Shown here piece by piece: positions 4,700-26,422 of a DNA stretch of 64,000 nt. The notes below the pieces were generated by a model, which searched no databases, was not told the DNA's origin, and was given only the letters and a program-made list of their open reading frames with translations. Position 1 is the first letter of the stretch. The number at the start of each line of letters is the position of its first letter. The DNA comes from Flavivirga sp. 57AJ16. Its GTDB lineage: Bacteria; Bacteroidota; Bacteroidia; Flavobacteriales; Flavobacteriaceae. Location of the stretch: the NCBI RefSeq assembly GCF_028736925.1, contig NZ_JAQZAT010000009.1:124001-188000 (forward strand). The letters run 5' to 3'. The translations under genes were made by a program, and so were the position numbers.

Positions 4700-4904
4700 C
4701 TACCGTGAGTACACATCTATAAAAAAGACACGAATGGCACAAATTCACACGAATCCAATACTTTACGGAATAGATTGGATACAGCAAAATATGAATCCCT
4801 AGTCTATATAGGCTTGAAATCTGTCGATAGTCTGAATAATTAGTGAAAATTTGTGCCATTCGTGTCCAATCTTTTTTTGTGCTTTATTTGTGTACACACG
4901 GTAG
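4700..4904. mobile_element. R1 repeat element, copy A (205 bp, MITE-like)
   Basis: The ends are imperfect inverted repeats: CTACCGTGAGTACACA on the left and TGTGTACACACGGTAG on the right. An inner inverted pair (GACACGAATGGCACAAATT) makes the whole element foldable. The 9-bp sequence TTTTCAAAA directly abuts both ends (4691-4699 and 4905-4913), as a target-site duplication would. Removing the element restores a perfect hairpin (TCCTCCC...GGGAGGA), so the target was itself a palindrome. No credible gene lies inside. Other copies are at 15252-15836 and 26067-26273. Confidence 0.75.
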
Positions 4905-15251: not shown

Positions 15252-15836
15252 ATTGGACACGAATGGCACAAATTTTCACTAATCTATTCAACGAGAGTTC
15301 GATTTAAAACCTGTCTGCCGACCAGGCAGGCAAGGGCGTTTTTAACAATAAATTCACTAATAAAGCGATTTATCGCCTTGAGCCTTTCGTCTTTTAGTTT
15401 ATACTGACAGACTGTGTCGTAATTCAAAACACATGTTTGAGATTGCCTTATTTGAATTTCTTCTCGGGCACCCTCCCGAGTGTTTTTCGCTAAAAAAGGC
15501 GAAAGTGCTAATTGTGACACAGTCTGCGAAGTCGAAGTACTCAAGATAAACTAAAGTCGAAAGGTCATTAAAACCAGCTATTTAAATGGGTTTCGACATA
15601 ACCTGTGCTGAGTTTACCGAAGTGCTCAACCTGACAACCAAGATTAAATCATTGATAGTCAGATTAATACTATTATGCTTATATCGAACTCTCGTTATTC
15701 AGTCTATTTACAGATTTCAAGCCTATATAGACTAGGGATTCATATTCGTGCTATATCCAATTCTATTCCATAATGTATTGGATTCGTGTGAATTTGTGCC
15801 ATTCGTGTCTTTTTTATAGATGTGTACACACGGTAG
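15252..15836 (-). mobile_element. R1 repeat element, copy B, inverted, truncated and split by a nested element
   Basis: In inverse orientation to copies A and C. It begins with GGACACGAATGGCACAAATT and ends with TGTGTACACACGGTAG at 15836. About 30 bp of one end are missing, where it joins the R2 half copy. It is interrupted at 15290-15696 by a separate inverted-repeat element. The body, including CTATATAGACTAGGGATTCA, otherwise matches the other copies. Confidence 0.75.
15290..15696. mobile_element. Nested 407-bp inverted-repeat element with 4-bp target duplication
   Basis: The termini are perfect 14-bp inverted repeats, AACGAGAGTTCGAT and ATCGAACTCTCGTT. The sequence ATTC directly flanks both ends (15286-15289 and 15697-15700), and removing one copy plus the element rejoins R1 copy B smoothly. 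Inside is a second inverted pair (CAGACTGTGTC near 15409 and GACACAGTCTG near 15517). A minus-strand frame at 15284-15544 crosses the terminus and is not credible as a gene. It looks like a non-autonomous insertion element. Confidence 0.7.
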
Positions 15837-18442: not shown

Positions 18443-18462
18443 ATTCCTGCCTTCGCAGGAAT
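18443..18462. repeat. ATTCCTGC palindrome at the aldehyde dehydrogenase stop
   Basis: ATTCCTGC/GCAGGAAT with a 4-nt loop overlaps the first base of the stop codon of the aldehyde dehydrogenase. The same hairpin occurs at 20710-20729 at the RidA start. Confidence 0.75.
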
Positions 18463-19901
18463 TAATATTTTATGCATACATTTTTTGCTTCGGTAAAAAA
18501 ACGTAATGCTTCAAAGCCACCTTCCCTGCCAACACCAGATGCTTTAACGCCTCCAAAAGGTGTTCTTAAATCACGGAGCATCCATGTGTTTACCCAGACA
18601 ATGCCAGCTTGCAATTGGTGACTCATTCTCATGGTACGCTTTAGGTTATTTGTCCATAATGTTGCCGATAATCCATATTTAACCTTGTTAGCCATTTGTA
18701 AGACGTTATCTTCAGTGTTAAACGGCATAATGGTTACCACTGGGCCGAAAATCTCTTCTTGGTTTACCCTGCATTCATCAGTAGCTACTTCAATAACTGT
18801 AGGCTCTAAATAATAGCCGTCTTCATAATCGGTAACAATGACTTTATTACCTCCACAAAGAATGGTGCCGTTTTCTTTTTTAGCCATGTTAATGTATTGT
18901 AATACTTTTTCTAGATGTGGTTTTGAAACTAAAGCCCCAATATTTGTGTCTTCTTTTGAAGGGTGACCAATTTTAAGTTTTTTGACTTTTTCGACAAAAT
19001 CAGTTTTAAATTTTTCATAAATGGCCGCTTCTACAAAAATGCGGCTTCCGCATAAACAAATTTGACCTTGATTGGCAAAAGAAGAACGGACCGTTGTTTC
19101 CAGCATATCATCATAATCACAATCGGCAAAAATGATATTTGGGTTTTTACCACCAAGTTCTAGGGATAGTTTTTTAAACATAGGTGCTGCAACTTTGGCA
19201 ATATGGGCCCCTGTTGCTGTACCGCCTGTAAACGAAATAGCCTTAATGTCCGGATGTTCTATAATGGCTTGTCCCGTTGTGTTGCCTAAACCATGAACAA
19301 TGTTTAAAACGCCTTTAGGCAATCCTGCTTCTGTGCAGATTTCCCCTAATAAATAAGCCGTCACAGGTGTTATTTCACTTGGTTTGGCAACGACACAATT
19401 TCCTGCAGCAATGGCTGGGGCAATTTTCCATGTAAAGAGATAGAGTGGGAGGTTCCAGGGAGAAATACAGCCTACTATGCCAATAGGTTGACGTAATGTG
19501 TAATTTATAGCATCATGGCCAACACTTTCGTGACTTTCACTGGCAAATTGTGTAATGGCATTTCCGAAAAAACGAAAGTTACTTGCCGCTCTAGGAATAT
19601 CGACGGTTTTTGCCAAACTGATAGGTTTGCCATTGTCCTTACTTTCGGCCTCGGCAAATCGTTGTAAATTGGCATCTAGTAATTCTGAAATCTTGATTAA
19701 AATTTTGCTGCGTTCATCTATAGTGGTCTGGGACCAGAGGGGAAAAACAGACTTTGCAGCGATATAGGCATTTTCTATATCATCTTTTGATGAGTTTGGT
19801 ATTTGCCCGTAGATTTTACCATTAGCAGGGCAATAGTTGTCAATCCACGCGTCATTGACGGGCGGTGAAAATTTACCGTTTATGTAGTTTTGAACATTCA
19901 T
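18462..19901 (-). CDS. Aldehyde dehydrogenase, 2-aminomuconate semialdehyde dehydrogenase type
   Basis: This 479-residue NAD-dependent ALDH shows every key motif: the proofreading IGCISPWNLPLYLFTWKIAPAI stretch with its catalytic Asn, the general base Glu in LELGGKNPNI, and the nucleophile Cys in NQGQICLCGSR near residue 281. In the kynurenine pathway it would oxidise 2-aminomuconate 6-semialdehyde to 2-aminomuconate. It is similar in plan to AmnC/NbaE and human ALDH8A1. Its ATG overlaps the stop of the GIY-YIG gene. A palindrome lies 13-28 bp upstream, in the place where ribosome binding is decided. Confidence 0.92.
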   Translation of the reverse strand: MNVQNYINGKFSPPVNDAWIDNYCPANGKIYGQIPNSSKDDIENAYIAAKSVFPLWSQTTIDERSKILIKISELLDANLQRFAEAESKDNGKPISLAKTVDIPRAASNFRFFGNAITQFASESHESVGHDAINYTLRQPIGIVGCISPWNLPLYLFTWKIAPAIAAGNCVVAKPSEITPVTAYLLGEICTEAGLPKGVLNIVHGLGNTTGQAIIEHPDIKAISFTGGTATGAHIAKVAAPMFKKLSLELGGKNPNIIFADCDYDDMLETTVRSSFANQGQICLCGSRIFVEAAIYEKFKTDFVEKVKKLKIGHPSKEDTNIGALVSKPHLEKVLQYINMAKKENGTILCGGNKVIVTDYEDGYYLEPTVIEVATDECRVNQEEIFGPVVTIMPFNTEDNVLQMANKVKYGLSATLWTNNLKRTMRMSHQLQAGIVWVNTWMLRDLRTPFGGVKASGVGREGGFEALRFFTEAKNVCIKY

Positions 19902-20251
19902 TGGTTTGTCTGGTCGAGCGCAGTCGAGACCGGCTCGCTTTCCAAATTATATTTTGAATGGGATGCCTTTCTGCATGCAGCTAAAATTTGTAACATATTA
20001 AAATTTTTGTTAGCTAAAGCCAACTTCTCCTTTGCCCTCCAATTTTTAATCTTCTTCTCGAAAGAAATGGCCTGATTAATATCGTTAAATTCCTGATGAA
20101 AAACTAATTTTAAAGGTCTTCTCTTAAAAGTGAAACCATTTTTATTAAGCCCATTTTGATATTTTTCAAAACGTCTTGATAAATTATTTGTAACTCCAGT
20201 ATAGATTAGTCCTTCTGAACATTTTAATATGTATACATCATCGGTTTTCAT
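19898..20251 (-). CDS. Small GIY-YIG nuclease domain protein
   Basis: The 117-residue protein has a GIY-YIG fold: first strand VYILKC (the GIY position), second YTGVTNNLSRRF (the YIG position plus catalytic Arg), then RRPLKLVFHQEF and the conserved Glu in AISFEKKIKNWRAKEKL. It belongs with the stand-alone UvrC N-terminal-like nucleases that are multi-copy in Flavobacteriaceae. The last residues (PVSTALDQ) are encoded by a palindromic repeat, and another copy of that repeat lies 9 bp before the ATG. It interrupts the kynurenine operon and has no evident metabolic role. The TGA overlaps the next gene's ATG. Confidence 0.88.
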   Translation of the reverse strand: MKTDDVYILKCSEGLIYTGVTNNLSRRFEKYQNGLNKNGFTFKRRPLKLVFHQEFNDINQAISFEKKIKNWRAKEKLALANKNFNMLQILAACRKASHSKYNLESEPVSTALDQTNQ

Positions 20252-20275
20252 TATAAAGCTCTCGACTGCGCTCGA
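19914..20275 (-). mobile_element. GIY-YIG gene bracketed by inverted dodecamer repeats
   Basis: TCGAGCGCAGTCGAGA at 19914-19929 and its exact reverse complement TCTCGACTGCGCTCGA at 20260-20275 enclose the GIY-YIG coding sequence. The core GAGCGCAGTCGA (allowing Y at two sites) recurs at least five more times in the window without a nuclease gene. The 362-bp unit lies between the RidA and aldehyde dehydrogenase genes of a pathway operon. It looks like a candidate self-moving repeat unit. Confidence 0.55.
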
Positions 20276-20294
20276 GGAAACATTTTAATTAATA

Positions 20295-20702
20295 TTACAG
20301 CTTCTTATAGGCTATTACTTTAATTTCCACAACCAAATCTGGATGAGGTAATTGGTGAACGGCTACTGTGGTACGCGTGGGACCGGTCTCTACATCAAAA
20401 AATGCTGCATATGCTTTGTTATAACCAGCAAAATCGTTCATGTTTACTAAAAAAGATGTAACATCGACCACATCCTTTAATGTGGCGCCTTCTTTTGTTA
20501 AATTCTTTTCTATATTTTTTAGTACCTCACGGGTCTGTACTTCAATATTTAAACGTTTGGTACCCATGTCGTCAATAATATCCACCCCAGCAATGGTATT
20601 ATCTGCTCTACGCGAACTGGTTCCCGAAACAAATATAAAATCGCCTACACGTTTGGTATGTGGATAGGCCCCTCTTGGTGTTACTTTCTCTGTTTCTTTC
20701 AT
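20295..20702 (-). CDS. RidA family deaminase, probable 2-aminomuconate deaminase
   Basis: This Rid-family protein ends with the conserved [24 protein letters not shown], whose Arg binds the carboxylate of the substrate. Its N-terminal [24 protein letters not shown] is also standard. RidA-type proteins release ammonia from enamines, and in 3-hydroxyanthranilate pathways a member converts 2-aminomuconate to 4-oxalocrotonate; the operon makes that role likely. The ATG at 20702 is chosen over 20711 because the upstream ATG is formed by the end of an inserted palindrome. Length is 135 residues. Confidence 0.85.
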
Positions 20703-20709
20703 ATTTTTC

Positions 20710-20729
20710 ATTCCTGCGAAGGCAGGAAT
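20710..20729. repeat. ATTCCTGC palindrome at the RidA start
   Basis: ATTCCTGC/GCAGGAAT with a 4-nt loop overlaps an in-frame ATG upstream of ridA. The repeat therefore supplies a false start codon and covers the leader. Confidence 0.75.
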
Positions 20730-20973
20730 CCCATAATTTTAGTTTCTATTTCAATTTCATCCTACTGTCTTCAGTTTCAAAAAAAATGAAGGAGTCGTTT
20801 TGGAATACCATTTCATTAATGTTTTAGATCTCCCTAATATTTCTATATTCGTTTTTGCTTGTTCAAAAAACCTTCGACTACGCTCGGGATAAACCAAGTC
20901 AAGGGATTTTTTAGTTTTATTATGCGAGTTTTAATGCCATTTTATTTCTAACTAACTCCTAACTTCCAACTCC

Positions 20974-22450: not shown

Positions 22451-22501
22451 GATTCCTCTCCTTCTCACACATCGACTGCGCTCTGTGGGATAGTGAGGAA
22501 T
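22451..22501. repeat. Large hairpin repeat between kynU and kmo
   Basis: ATTCCTC and GAGGAAT arms enclose an inner CACACA/TGTG stem and the dodecamer core TCGACTGCGCTC (22472-22483). It is a member of the same dispersed hairpin family as the repeats that bracket the GIY-YIG gene. Confidence 0.65.
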
Positions 22502-24749: not shown

Positions 24750-24950
24750 GAGGTAGTCAGAAAAGTGTCATTCAGAATATTACCGAGAAACAAAATATAT
24801 TTTGTTAAGAAGGTAGCAGCGAAGCTGTGAAGAATCTCTTAAAAACATAATATATTGTTTTACTAAACTATAAGATTCTTCGCTATAGCCTGTACTGAGC
24901 GTAGTCGAAGTACTCTGAATGACAAAATATATTACTTTTCAGACTGCCTC
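24750..24950. mobile_element. R5 inverted-repeat element (201 bp)
   Basis: The ends GAGGTAGTCAGAAAAGT and ACTTTTCAGACTGCCTC are inverted repeats with two mismatches. Inside are another inverted pair around AAGATTCTTC/GAAGAATCT and the dodecamer GAGCGTAGTCGA at 24897-24908. No coding frame is credible. It occupies most of the 315-bp gap between the IclR and CDGSH genes. Confidence 0.65.
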
Positions 24951-25813: not shown

Positions 25814-26422
25814 CCTGCCTGCCGATGAGCTACGGTGTACCCACAAATAATATAAATAATCACACCAAGTTAATTAGTATCTATTTTGTACCAAAGGCTT
25901 GTCCGAGACGTGTTCCTCCCTTTTTAGCAAAAAAAGGAGGAGGCTGTATGTGGTAACATACAGACGGAGGGTTTGTTTTTTAGAGTGTTCTTTTCTTGTT
26001 TAATTTGTCAAACGCCCCTTTCTTTTCCTCCTGGCGTCGAAAAATTCATCCCTTCTTTTGCTGAAGCTACCGTGAGTACACATCTATAAAAAAGACACGA
26101 ATGGCACAAATTCACACGAATCCAATGTTTTATGGCATTGATTGGACTCGGCATGAATATGAATCCCTAGACTATATAGGCTTGAAATCTGTCGATAGGC
26201 AGAATAATTAGTGAAAATTTGTGCCATTCGTGTCCCATCTTTTTATTGCGCATTATTTGTATACACACAGTAGTTCAGCTGAAGCGGGGAGGTGGTTCAA
26301 TGATACGGCATTACTGCATAATAACGCCTGTCTGTCGTGAAAGCTATTGGCATATCCATTTAACTGCGGACAAAATAGTTCCTTAAAAGATGTGGGCACA
26401 CCGTAGTTGTCGGCGAGGCAGG
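25814..26422. mobile_element. R4 inverted-repeat element (about 609 bp) containing R1 copy C
   Basis: The left end CCTGCCTGCCGATGAGCTAC and right end (reverse complement beginning CCTGCCTCGCCGACAACTAC) are inverted repeats over about 32 bp, continuing into GGTGTRCCCACA. The interior has smaller hairpins: a TCCTCCCTTTTT/AAAAAAAGGAGGA stem near 25915 and GTATGTGGTAACATAC near 25950. R1 copy C lies inside. No protein-coding gene is visible in the 1,007-bp gap (25461-26467) that holds it. Confidence 0.55.
26067..26273. mobile_element. R1 repeat element, copy C (207 bp)
   Basis: It has the same orientation and layout as copy A: CTACCGTGAGTACACA at the left and TGTATACACACAGTAG at the right, with the inner GACACGAATGGCACAAATT pair. 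The flanks TTTTGCTGAAG (26056-26066) and TTCAGCTGAAG (26274-26284) match at 9 of 11 positions, which may be a decayed target duplication. Confidence 0.72.

Follow-up and report, generated by a model that had tools for sequence, protein, structure and literature searches.

The stretch of DNA analysed here, hereafter the window, comprises 64,000 nucleotides of Flavivirga sp. 57AJ16, the genome of which is referred to as G000. On its minus strand it carries an operon resembling the kynurenine-degradation (kyn) operon, in which a small GIY-YIG nuclease gene is located between a RidA-like and an aldehyde dehydrogenase (ALDH) gene. Profile checks of the operon neighbours covered the RidA-like, aldehyde dehydrogenase and FAD monooxygenase genes only; the names of the other kyn operon genes are presumably KYNU, SDR, HAO and ACMSD. 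The genes and repeats concerned are the following:

18443..18462, strand unassigned: ATTCC-type hairpin, in the intergenic gap that follows the aldehyde dehydrogenase gene.
18462..19901, minus strand: aldehyde dehydrogenase gene (PF00171), the host operon gene downstream of the nuclease; from reading frame and profile.
19898..20251, minus strand: GIY-YIG nuclease gene, 117 aa; from its open frame, PF01541, UPF0213 matches and purifying selection.
19907..19931, plus strand: repeat at the 3' end of the unit, its TGTC tag intact; core at 19914-19929, overlapping the last codons of the nuclease.
20260..20282, minus strand: repeat at the 5' end of the unit; core at 20260-20275, outer tag decayed to TGTT (TGTC in relatives, by comparison with sister genomes).
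20295..20711, minus strand: RidA-like gene (PF01042), the host operon gene upstream of the nuclease; from reading frame and profile.
20710..20729, strand unassigned: ATTCC-type hairpin, at the 5' end of the RidA-like gene.
20874..20885, minus strand: solitary core copy (GAGCGTAGTCGA), between the RidA-like and FAD monooxygenase genes.
22472..22483, minus strand: solitary core copy, between the FAD monooxygenase gene and its upstream neighbour.
24897..24908, plus strand: solitary core copy, outside the operon.

The unit is delimited by TCGAGCGCAGTCGAGA at 19914-19929 and by its exact reverse complement at 20260-20275, and measures 362 bp, as the initial annotation had described. A TGTC tag borders the repeat on its outer side; the one at 19907-19910 is intact, whereas that of the opposite end has decayed to TGTT. 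The nuclease stop codon and the aldehyde dehydrogenase start codon overlap as ATGA at 19898-19901, and the two genes may be translationally coupled in the window genome. When up to two mismatches were allowed, the 14-mer TCGAGCGCAGTCGA was counted four times in the window, against 0.02 expected from shuffles; its exact form occurs seven times in the window genome, the pair of the unit accounting for two of these, against none for the reversed control. Likewise, the core GAGCGNAGTCGA has 134 copies in the 4.9-Mb genome and none for its reversed control. Five copies lie in the window, three of them outside the unit, in agreement with the earlier remark that the core is scattered over the window without a nuclease gene. 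That remark had also spoken of short palindromes; as hairpins, the two repeats of the unit fold weakly (z-scores 0.42 and -0.59; 5-bp stems, 6- or 12-nt loops). The window also contains a paired inverted repeat of another kind (GACACGAATGGCACAAATT...), about 140 bp across at 4727-4866 and 26094-26234 and once 554 bp across (15256-15809), which recurs in L260 (about 18996-19131); it has no obvious gene of its own and looks like another small mobile element.

The window reading frame matches PF01541 with an E-value of 5.5e-15 (55.9 bits, against a curated cut-off of 22.6; positions 4-76 of 78), which upholds its identification as a GIY-YIG nuclease. The catalytic residues of these enzymes are a Tyr, a Tyr-x-Gly, an Arg and a Glu; in an eight-row alignment that includes the window protein, Y11, Y22, G24, R32 and E69 are invariant. 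The closest solved relatives by sequence are the UPF0213 structures 1zg2 (E 1.6e-7) and 1ywl (E 7.7e-5), which, however, are annotated as hypothetical proteins only, in a listing that mentions no repeat association. Purifying selection was detected both in the kyn-type subfamily, to which the window gene belongs (dN/dS 0.09-0.21 for six pairs from four intact orthologs), and in a related subfamily with ATTCC-type repeats (median dN/dS 0.02 for 28 pairs, at high dS). Overall, PF01541 matches were present in 39 of 40 surveyed genomes, UvrC-type long frames being counted.

After a search of 249 genomes of the host's bacterial family with a profile of the kyn-type nuclease, we inspected the best locus from each of the 30 genomes that scored highest, using a relaxed core defined as GAGC, 2-3 bases and GTCGA. 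This core lies on both sides of the gene with its tags outward at 23 of the 30 loci, and on at least one side at 29, whereas both repeats point inward at two. Five of these loci also contributed to the query alignment, having been picked partly for their repeats; when they are excluded, the core is found on both sides at 19 of 25 loci and on at least one side at 24. Bracketing in other genera, which had been proposed as a check, is thus well supported. Judging from tblastn positions, half of the 30 units reside in the kyn operon, in five different gaps: between the RidA and ALDH genes (eight), between ALDH and SDR (three), after ACMSD (two), between KMO and RidA (one), and before ALDH without RidA in reach (one). 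In the protein tree, a single clade of 21 rows (support 99/91) takes in all 15 residents and six units that were not observed near kyn genes; the gap labels are intermixed within this clade, where inner support is weak. As far as sequences can tell, this would fit one old arrival in the kyn operon followed by local moves, and transfer between species would be compatible too.

We then compared the RidA-ALDH gap in 12 genomes of the genus, G000 included. An open unit is found in G000, G004, G005 and G007, and disrupted ones in G001 (in-frame stop) and G009 (frame ending at 74 aa). Moreover, the unit is internally deleted in G008, reduced in G006 to both repeats with hardly any gene, and truncated at its 5' end in G002, while G003, G010 and G011 have none. 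At this gap, G003 and G011 (L052 and L060) carry a solitary ATTCC-type hairpin where other genomes have the unit, as if intergenic repeats replaced one another there. In G004 the TGTC tags are intact on both sides. The 3' repeat had been noted to supply the final codons of the nuclease, which is correct for the window genome; in G004 and G007, however, the stop codon lies just before the repeat, and such read-through is therefore a local feature.

A second unit (L041, at the C9 site of G000) is intact in that genome, with a perfect 31-bp inverted repeat. At the same site, G003 has a repeat, a gene remnant and a repeat of another type, G006 has a single repeat, and the unit is absent from the other nine genomes of the genus. 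The decay series at the kyn and L041 sites imply that paired and single repeats can be remnants of nuclease units. By eye, neither a clean empty site nor a target-site duplication was found at the kyn and C9 sites, where the alignments are too diverged for exact boundaries, and at a further site, in G005, the right flank was recovered in none of the 11 sister genomes, so that no clean insertion boundary emerged. Compared with an intact empty recognition site, the sister sites are decayed, of a different type, or too diverged. Overall, the suggested comparison of orthologous kyn operons yielded staged decay in sister genomes and five gaps elsewhere, but no clean empty site.

Other small GIY-YIG genes of G000 are bracketed by other repeats. 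With the threshold for an inverted repeat between gene flanks placed at a score of 15, 5 of the 17 GIY-YIG genes that this genome contributes to a set from its taxonomic order (order set) pass, the kyn gene included, and several further ones show diverged hairpins by eye. According to the initial annotation, lack of a flanking dodecamer at the other GIY-YIG genes of the genome would point to a chance association. Most of them do lack it, because they have repeats of their own or lie next to tRNA genes, and that test was therefore too narrow. The order set as a whole comprises 131 genes taken from the matches listed, leaving out UvrC-like and other long frames, the G025 hit, a stop-containing G000 copy (C12:63164) and the G001 kyn pseudogene. 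In this set, 49 of the 131 small GIY-YIG genes reach the inverted-repeat threshold, compared with 2.0% of pairs permuted across genomes. Direct repeats are frequent too (72/131), and 52 of the 93 nuclease genes longer than 90 aa remain below the threshold.

The arrangement extends to many phyla. In a scan of named genomes, limited to the best 80 of at least 565 relatives, two of which were dropped for too little flank, a strong inverted repeat spans the gene at 55 of 78 loci, among them all seven Bradyrhizobium-titled ones. In the control, such a repeat was found for 11 of 432 non-overlapping neighbour reading frames; four of the ten best of these frames are themselves small GIY-YIG genes by sequence, and hence at least four of the 11. 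In arms such as TGTCATTCCTGCGCAGGCAGGAATCCA, the tail points to the gene and the GTC tag faces outward. Among these same loci (from the best 80 of at least 565), both flanks have an outward GTC-tagged hairpin at 40 of 78 and an inward one at 5 of 78; the corresponding numbers for the 432 controls are 3 and 1. Near-identical copies of a unit also occur within one genome. A census of tagged hairpins in 464 kb of G000 gave 11 at score 7.5, against 6 in one shuffle, and 9 against 1 at score 8, and these few strong hairpins indicate that they do not form a huge population in G000.

The shortest genes follow a different pattern. A tRNA gene lies within 250 nt of 25 of the 38 GIY-YIG genes of up to 90 aa in the order set, always on the same strand (25/25), compared with 1 of the 93 longer genes. 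In 23 of these 25 cases the opposite flank has a direct repeat (score of at least 20), frequently a partial copy of the tRNA or its terminator. In G000 the class is represented by L040, L043, L048 and L049; these genes and their relatives encode GIY-YIG proteins of about 80 aa, and the tRNA genes next to them are intact (Pro, Leu, Val, Arg, His and others). This tRNA-adjacent class suggests that small GIY-YIG elements may have structured sites in common.

In G000, cores also occur in pairs 44-45 nt apart. These were considered as free REPIN-like elements and rejected, as the eight copies inspected lie inside one MITE; a ninth, different core pair likewise lies between inverted repeats. The MITE has the terminal inverted repeat CAATGTCATTAAGTTAAGG, target duplications of about 9 bp by eye and a pair of GAGCGCAGTCGA cores inside. 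The eight G000 copies inspected are in L264 (about 14572), L273 (about 13272), L282, L291, L296, L298, L302 and L306.

The relation between nuclease and repeat was evaluated in 7937 gene pairs from different genomes that share no detectable outer flanks. Nuclease similarity correlates with flanking-repeat similarity (rho 0.32), whereas within-genome permutations gave a mean of 0.06 and a maximum of 0.13. Similar repeats are found in 0.7% of the pairs with low protein similarity and in 98% of those with high similarity, although the top class may be inflated by orthologous loci whose flanks have diverged beyond detection. Moreover, among the 249 genomes of the family, the ATTCC hairpin is found in 32 of 33 genomes with a strong cognate nuclease and in 65 of 216 without it (AUC 0.92). 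The GAGCG core occurs in all 47 genomes that have a strong kyn-type nuclease and in 127 of the 202 that lack one (AUC 0.90). The crossed pairs reach AUCs of 0.69 and 0.77. In a joint rank regression with both nucleases, the cognate terms have t values of 9.7 and 9.3 and the crossed ones of 3.2 and 3.8. A stricter set of 198 genomes, with one genome per genus and without the query genomes and the genus of G000, gave cognate AUCs of 0.90 and 0.93 against crossed ones of 0.71 and 0.77, and t values of 7.6 and 8.7 against 3.4 and 3.6, statistics that are not fully corrected for phylogeny. Each of the two nuclease subfamilies thus tracks its own repeat more strongly than that of the other, in a double dissociation. 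Both subfamilies are patchily present among the 249 genomes, and 13 genomes have at least ten ATTCC hairpins without a strong cognate nuclease; in six of these the search gave no match at the cut-off.

These repeats recall the CGTC REPs. As defined in PMC3733652, such elements have CGTC, TGTC or CCTC as their tag; the stem begins with AT and is 8-9 bp long, the loop measures 4-5 nt, and the tail is CCA-like. Members include the neisserial dRS3 and the rickettsial RPE-4 and RPE-6, Bradyrhizobium is named among the hosts, and these REPs are said to 'apparently lack a dedicated transposase' (PMC3733652). Going by that definition, the ATTCC-type repeat TTGTCATTCCTGCGAAGGCAGGAATCCACT of the related units agrees in its TGTC tag, 8-bp stem starting with AT, 4-nt loop and CCA tail (z -4.03), and hairpins such as TGTCATTCCTGCGAAGGCAGGAATCCA fit the published elements as well. 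The window repeat, in contrast, shares with them the tag and differs in stem, loop and tail, which makes it at best a relative of the CGTC REPs as they are described there. In the open-access full-text literature, outside of which lie most subscription papers and all preprints, no report was found that links GIY-YIG genes with REPs, and the available passages of PMC6006769, which cites the CGTC REP paper, make no mention of GIY.

Comparison with the REP/RAYT systems (REPtrons, REPINs and GTAG REPs) shows both likeness and difference. In both, inverted and tagged palindromic repeats frame a small nuclease gene, further copies of them are scattered through the genome, and enzyme lineage and repeat type correspond. 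However, the enzyme is here a GIY-YIG nuclease instead of the Y1/HUH tyrosine transposase that a REPtron encodes, and the tags are of GTC instead of GTAG type. Genes of the RAYT-like family (PF01797) are present in all 12 genomes of the genus, and one could imagine that a RAYT or another transposase moves the repeats, with the GIY-YIG genes merely sitting between them. More than 60 matches yielded 30 RAYT-like loci, two of which are clipped; at the 28 with full flanks, neither the ATTCC hairpin nor the GAGCG core was found (0/28), which strongly disfavours a RAYT as the mover of these repeats. Such a mover would also leave the match between nuclease and repeat unexplained, and we regard this explanation as very improbable. 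One of the 28 loci has a third repeat type (CTGAACTTG) on one side, and eight carry inverted repeats of other sequence; these eight (L380, L382, L389, L392, L393, L395, L398 and L399) have their own inverted repeats across the gene, several of them CCGCTAAACTGTGTTTAGTGGCG, unlike those of the GIY-YIG genes.

Based on these results, we consider it probable that the window contains a selfish REP-nuclease unit, composed of a GIY-YIG gene and two inverted, outward-tagged repeats, which would resemble a REPtron without RAYT. The observations behind this reading are the bracketing, the orientation of the tags, the match between lineage and repeat, their co-occurrence, the staged decay and the different gaps of one operon. 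The nuclease would recognise its cognate tagged repeat and nick or cut it; repair of the break would place copies of the entire unit, or of just its repeat, at other sites; and units would later lose the gene by internal deletion, leaving paired and then single repeats. The same logic may apply to numerous subfamilies of small GIY-YIG nucleases that each have a repeat of their own, among them the hairpins that fit CGTC REPs. The initial annotation had compared the nuclease with REP/RAYT, on a different fold: bracketing at 23 of 30 loci, an AUC of 0.90, occurrence in other phyla and the 0/28 at RAYT-like loci argue for such a partnership, whereas 'mobilises or maintains' belongs to the conditional part of the reading.

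GIY-YIG nucleases are the classic homing nucleases, and free-standing homing endonuclease genes such as the phage T4 Seg genes are, like the present one, GIY-YIG genes in intergenic gaps and probably selfish. The repeat could accordingly be a homing site: the nuclease would cut a pre-existing solitary repeat, and the repeat-flanked gene would be copied in by homologous recombination. Solitary repeats are plentiful, and sister genomes carry them at the C9 site of G000 and in the kyn gap; however, those at the C9 and kyn sites look like remnants or are of another type. Moreover, complete inverted repeats at both ends would be unusual for homing into one site, and to our knowledge homing genes are not bracketed by inverted palindromic repeats at both ends. 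We consider homing possible, although it appears less plausible than a selfish REP-nuclease unit; the present data are compatible with both. A host function is in our view unlikely. Here, a resident, selected nuclease would trim or resolve structures at repeats, or the locus would be repeat-regulated, without any spreading. It could draw on the strong purifying selection in the ATTCC-type subfamily, on the persistence of the kyn-type unit in the same operon in many genera, and on REPs being known as regulatory hairpins (PMC3733652). Nevertheless, it is difficult to reconcile with frequent gene loss and decay in sister genomes, patchy presence, changing gaps and sites, and near-identical copies within one genome. 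As repeats are dispersed in many genomes, common intergenic repeats might also lie next to small genes by chance, but the neighbour-gene, permuted and reversed-pattern controls, together with the double dissociation, lead us to reject chance juxtaposition, the probability of which we regard as negligible.

Taking the selfish REP-nuclease unit beyond this locus, we lean, by a small degree, towards the broader proposal that small GIY-YIG nucleases are the missing enzymes of the CGTC REPs. They would represent a second, HUH-independent REP-nuclease partnership, extending from Bacteroidota and Bradyrhizobium to candidate phyla, each lineage with its own palindrome, and accompanied by a sister class of nucleases of about 80 aa that would use tRNA genes or terminators as structured targets. 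If this holds, the GIY-YIG partner would be a candidate enzyme for the CGTC REPs and would explain part of their spread. In addition, the arrangement of a repeat plus a nuclease would have been reached at least twice in bacteria, with unrelated folds, and a role would be found for a very common class of small, mostly uncharacterised GIY-YIG genes.
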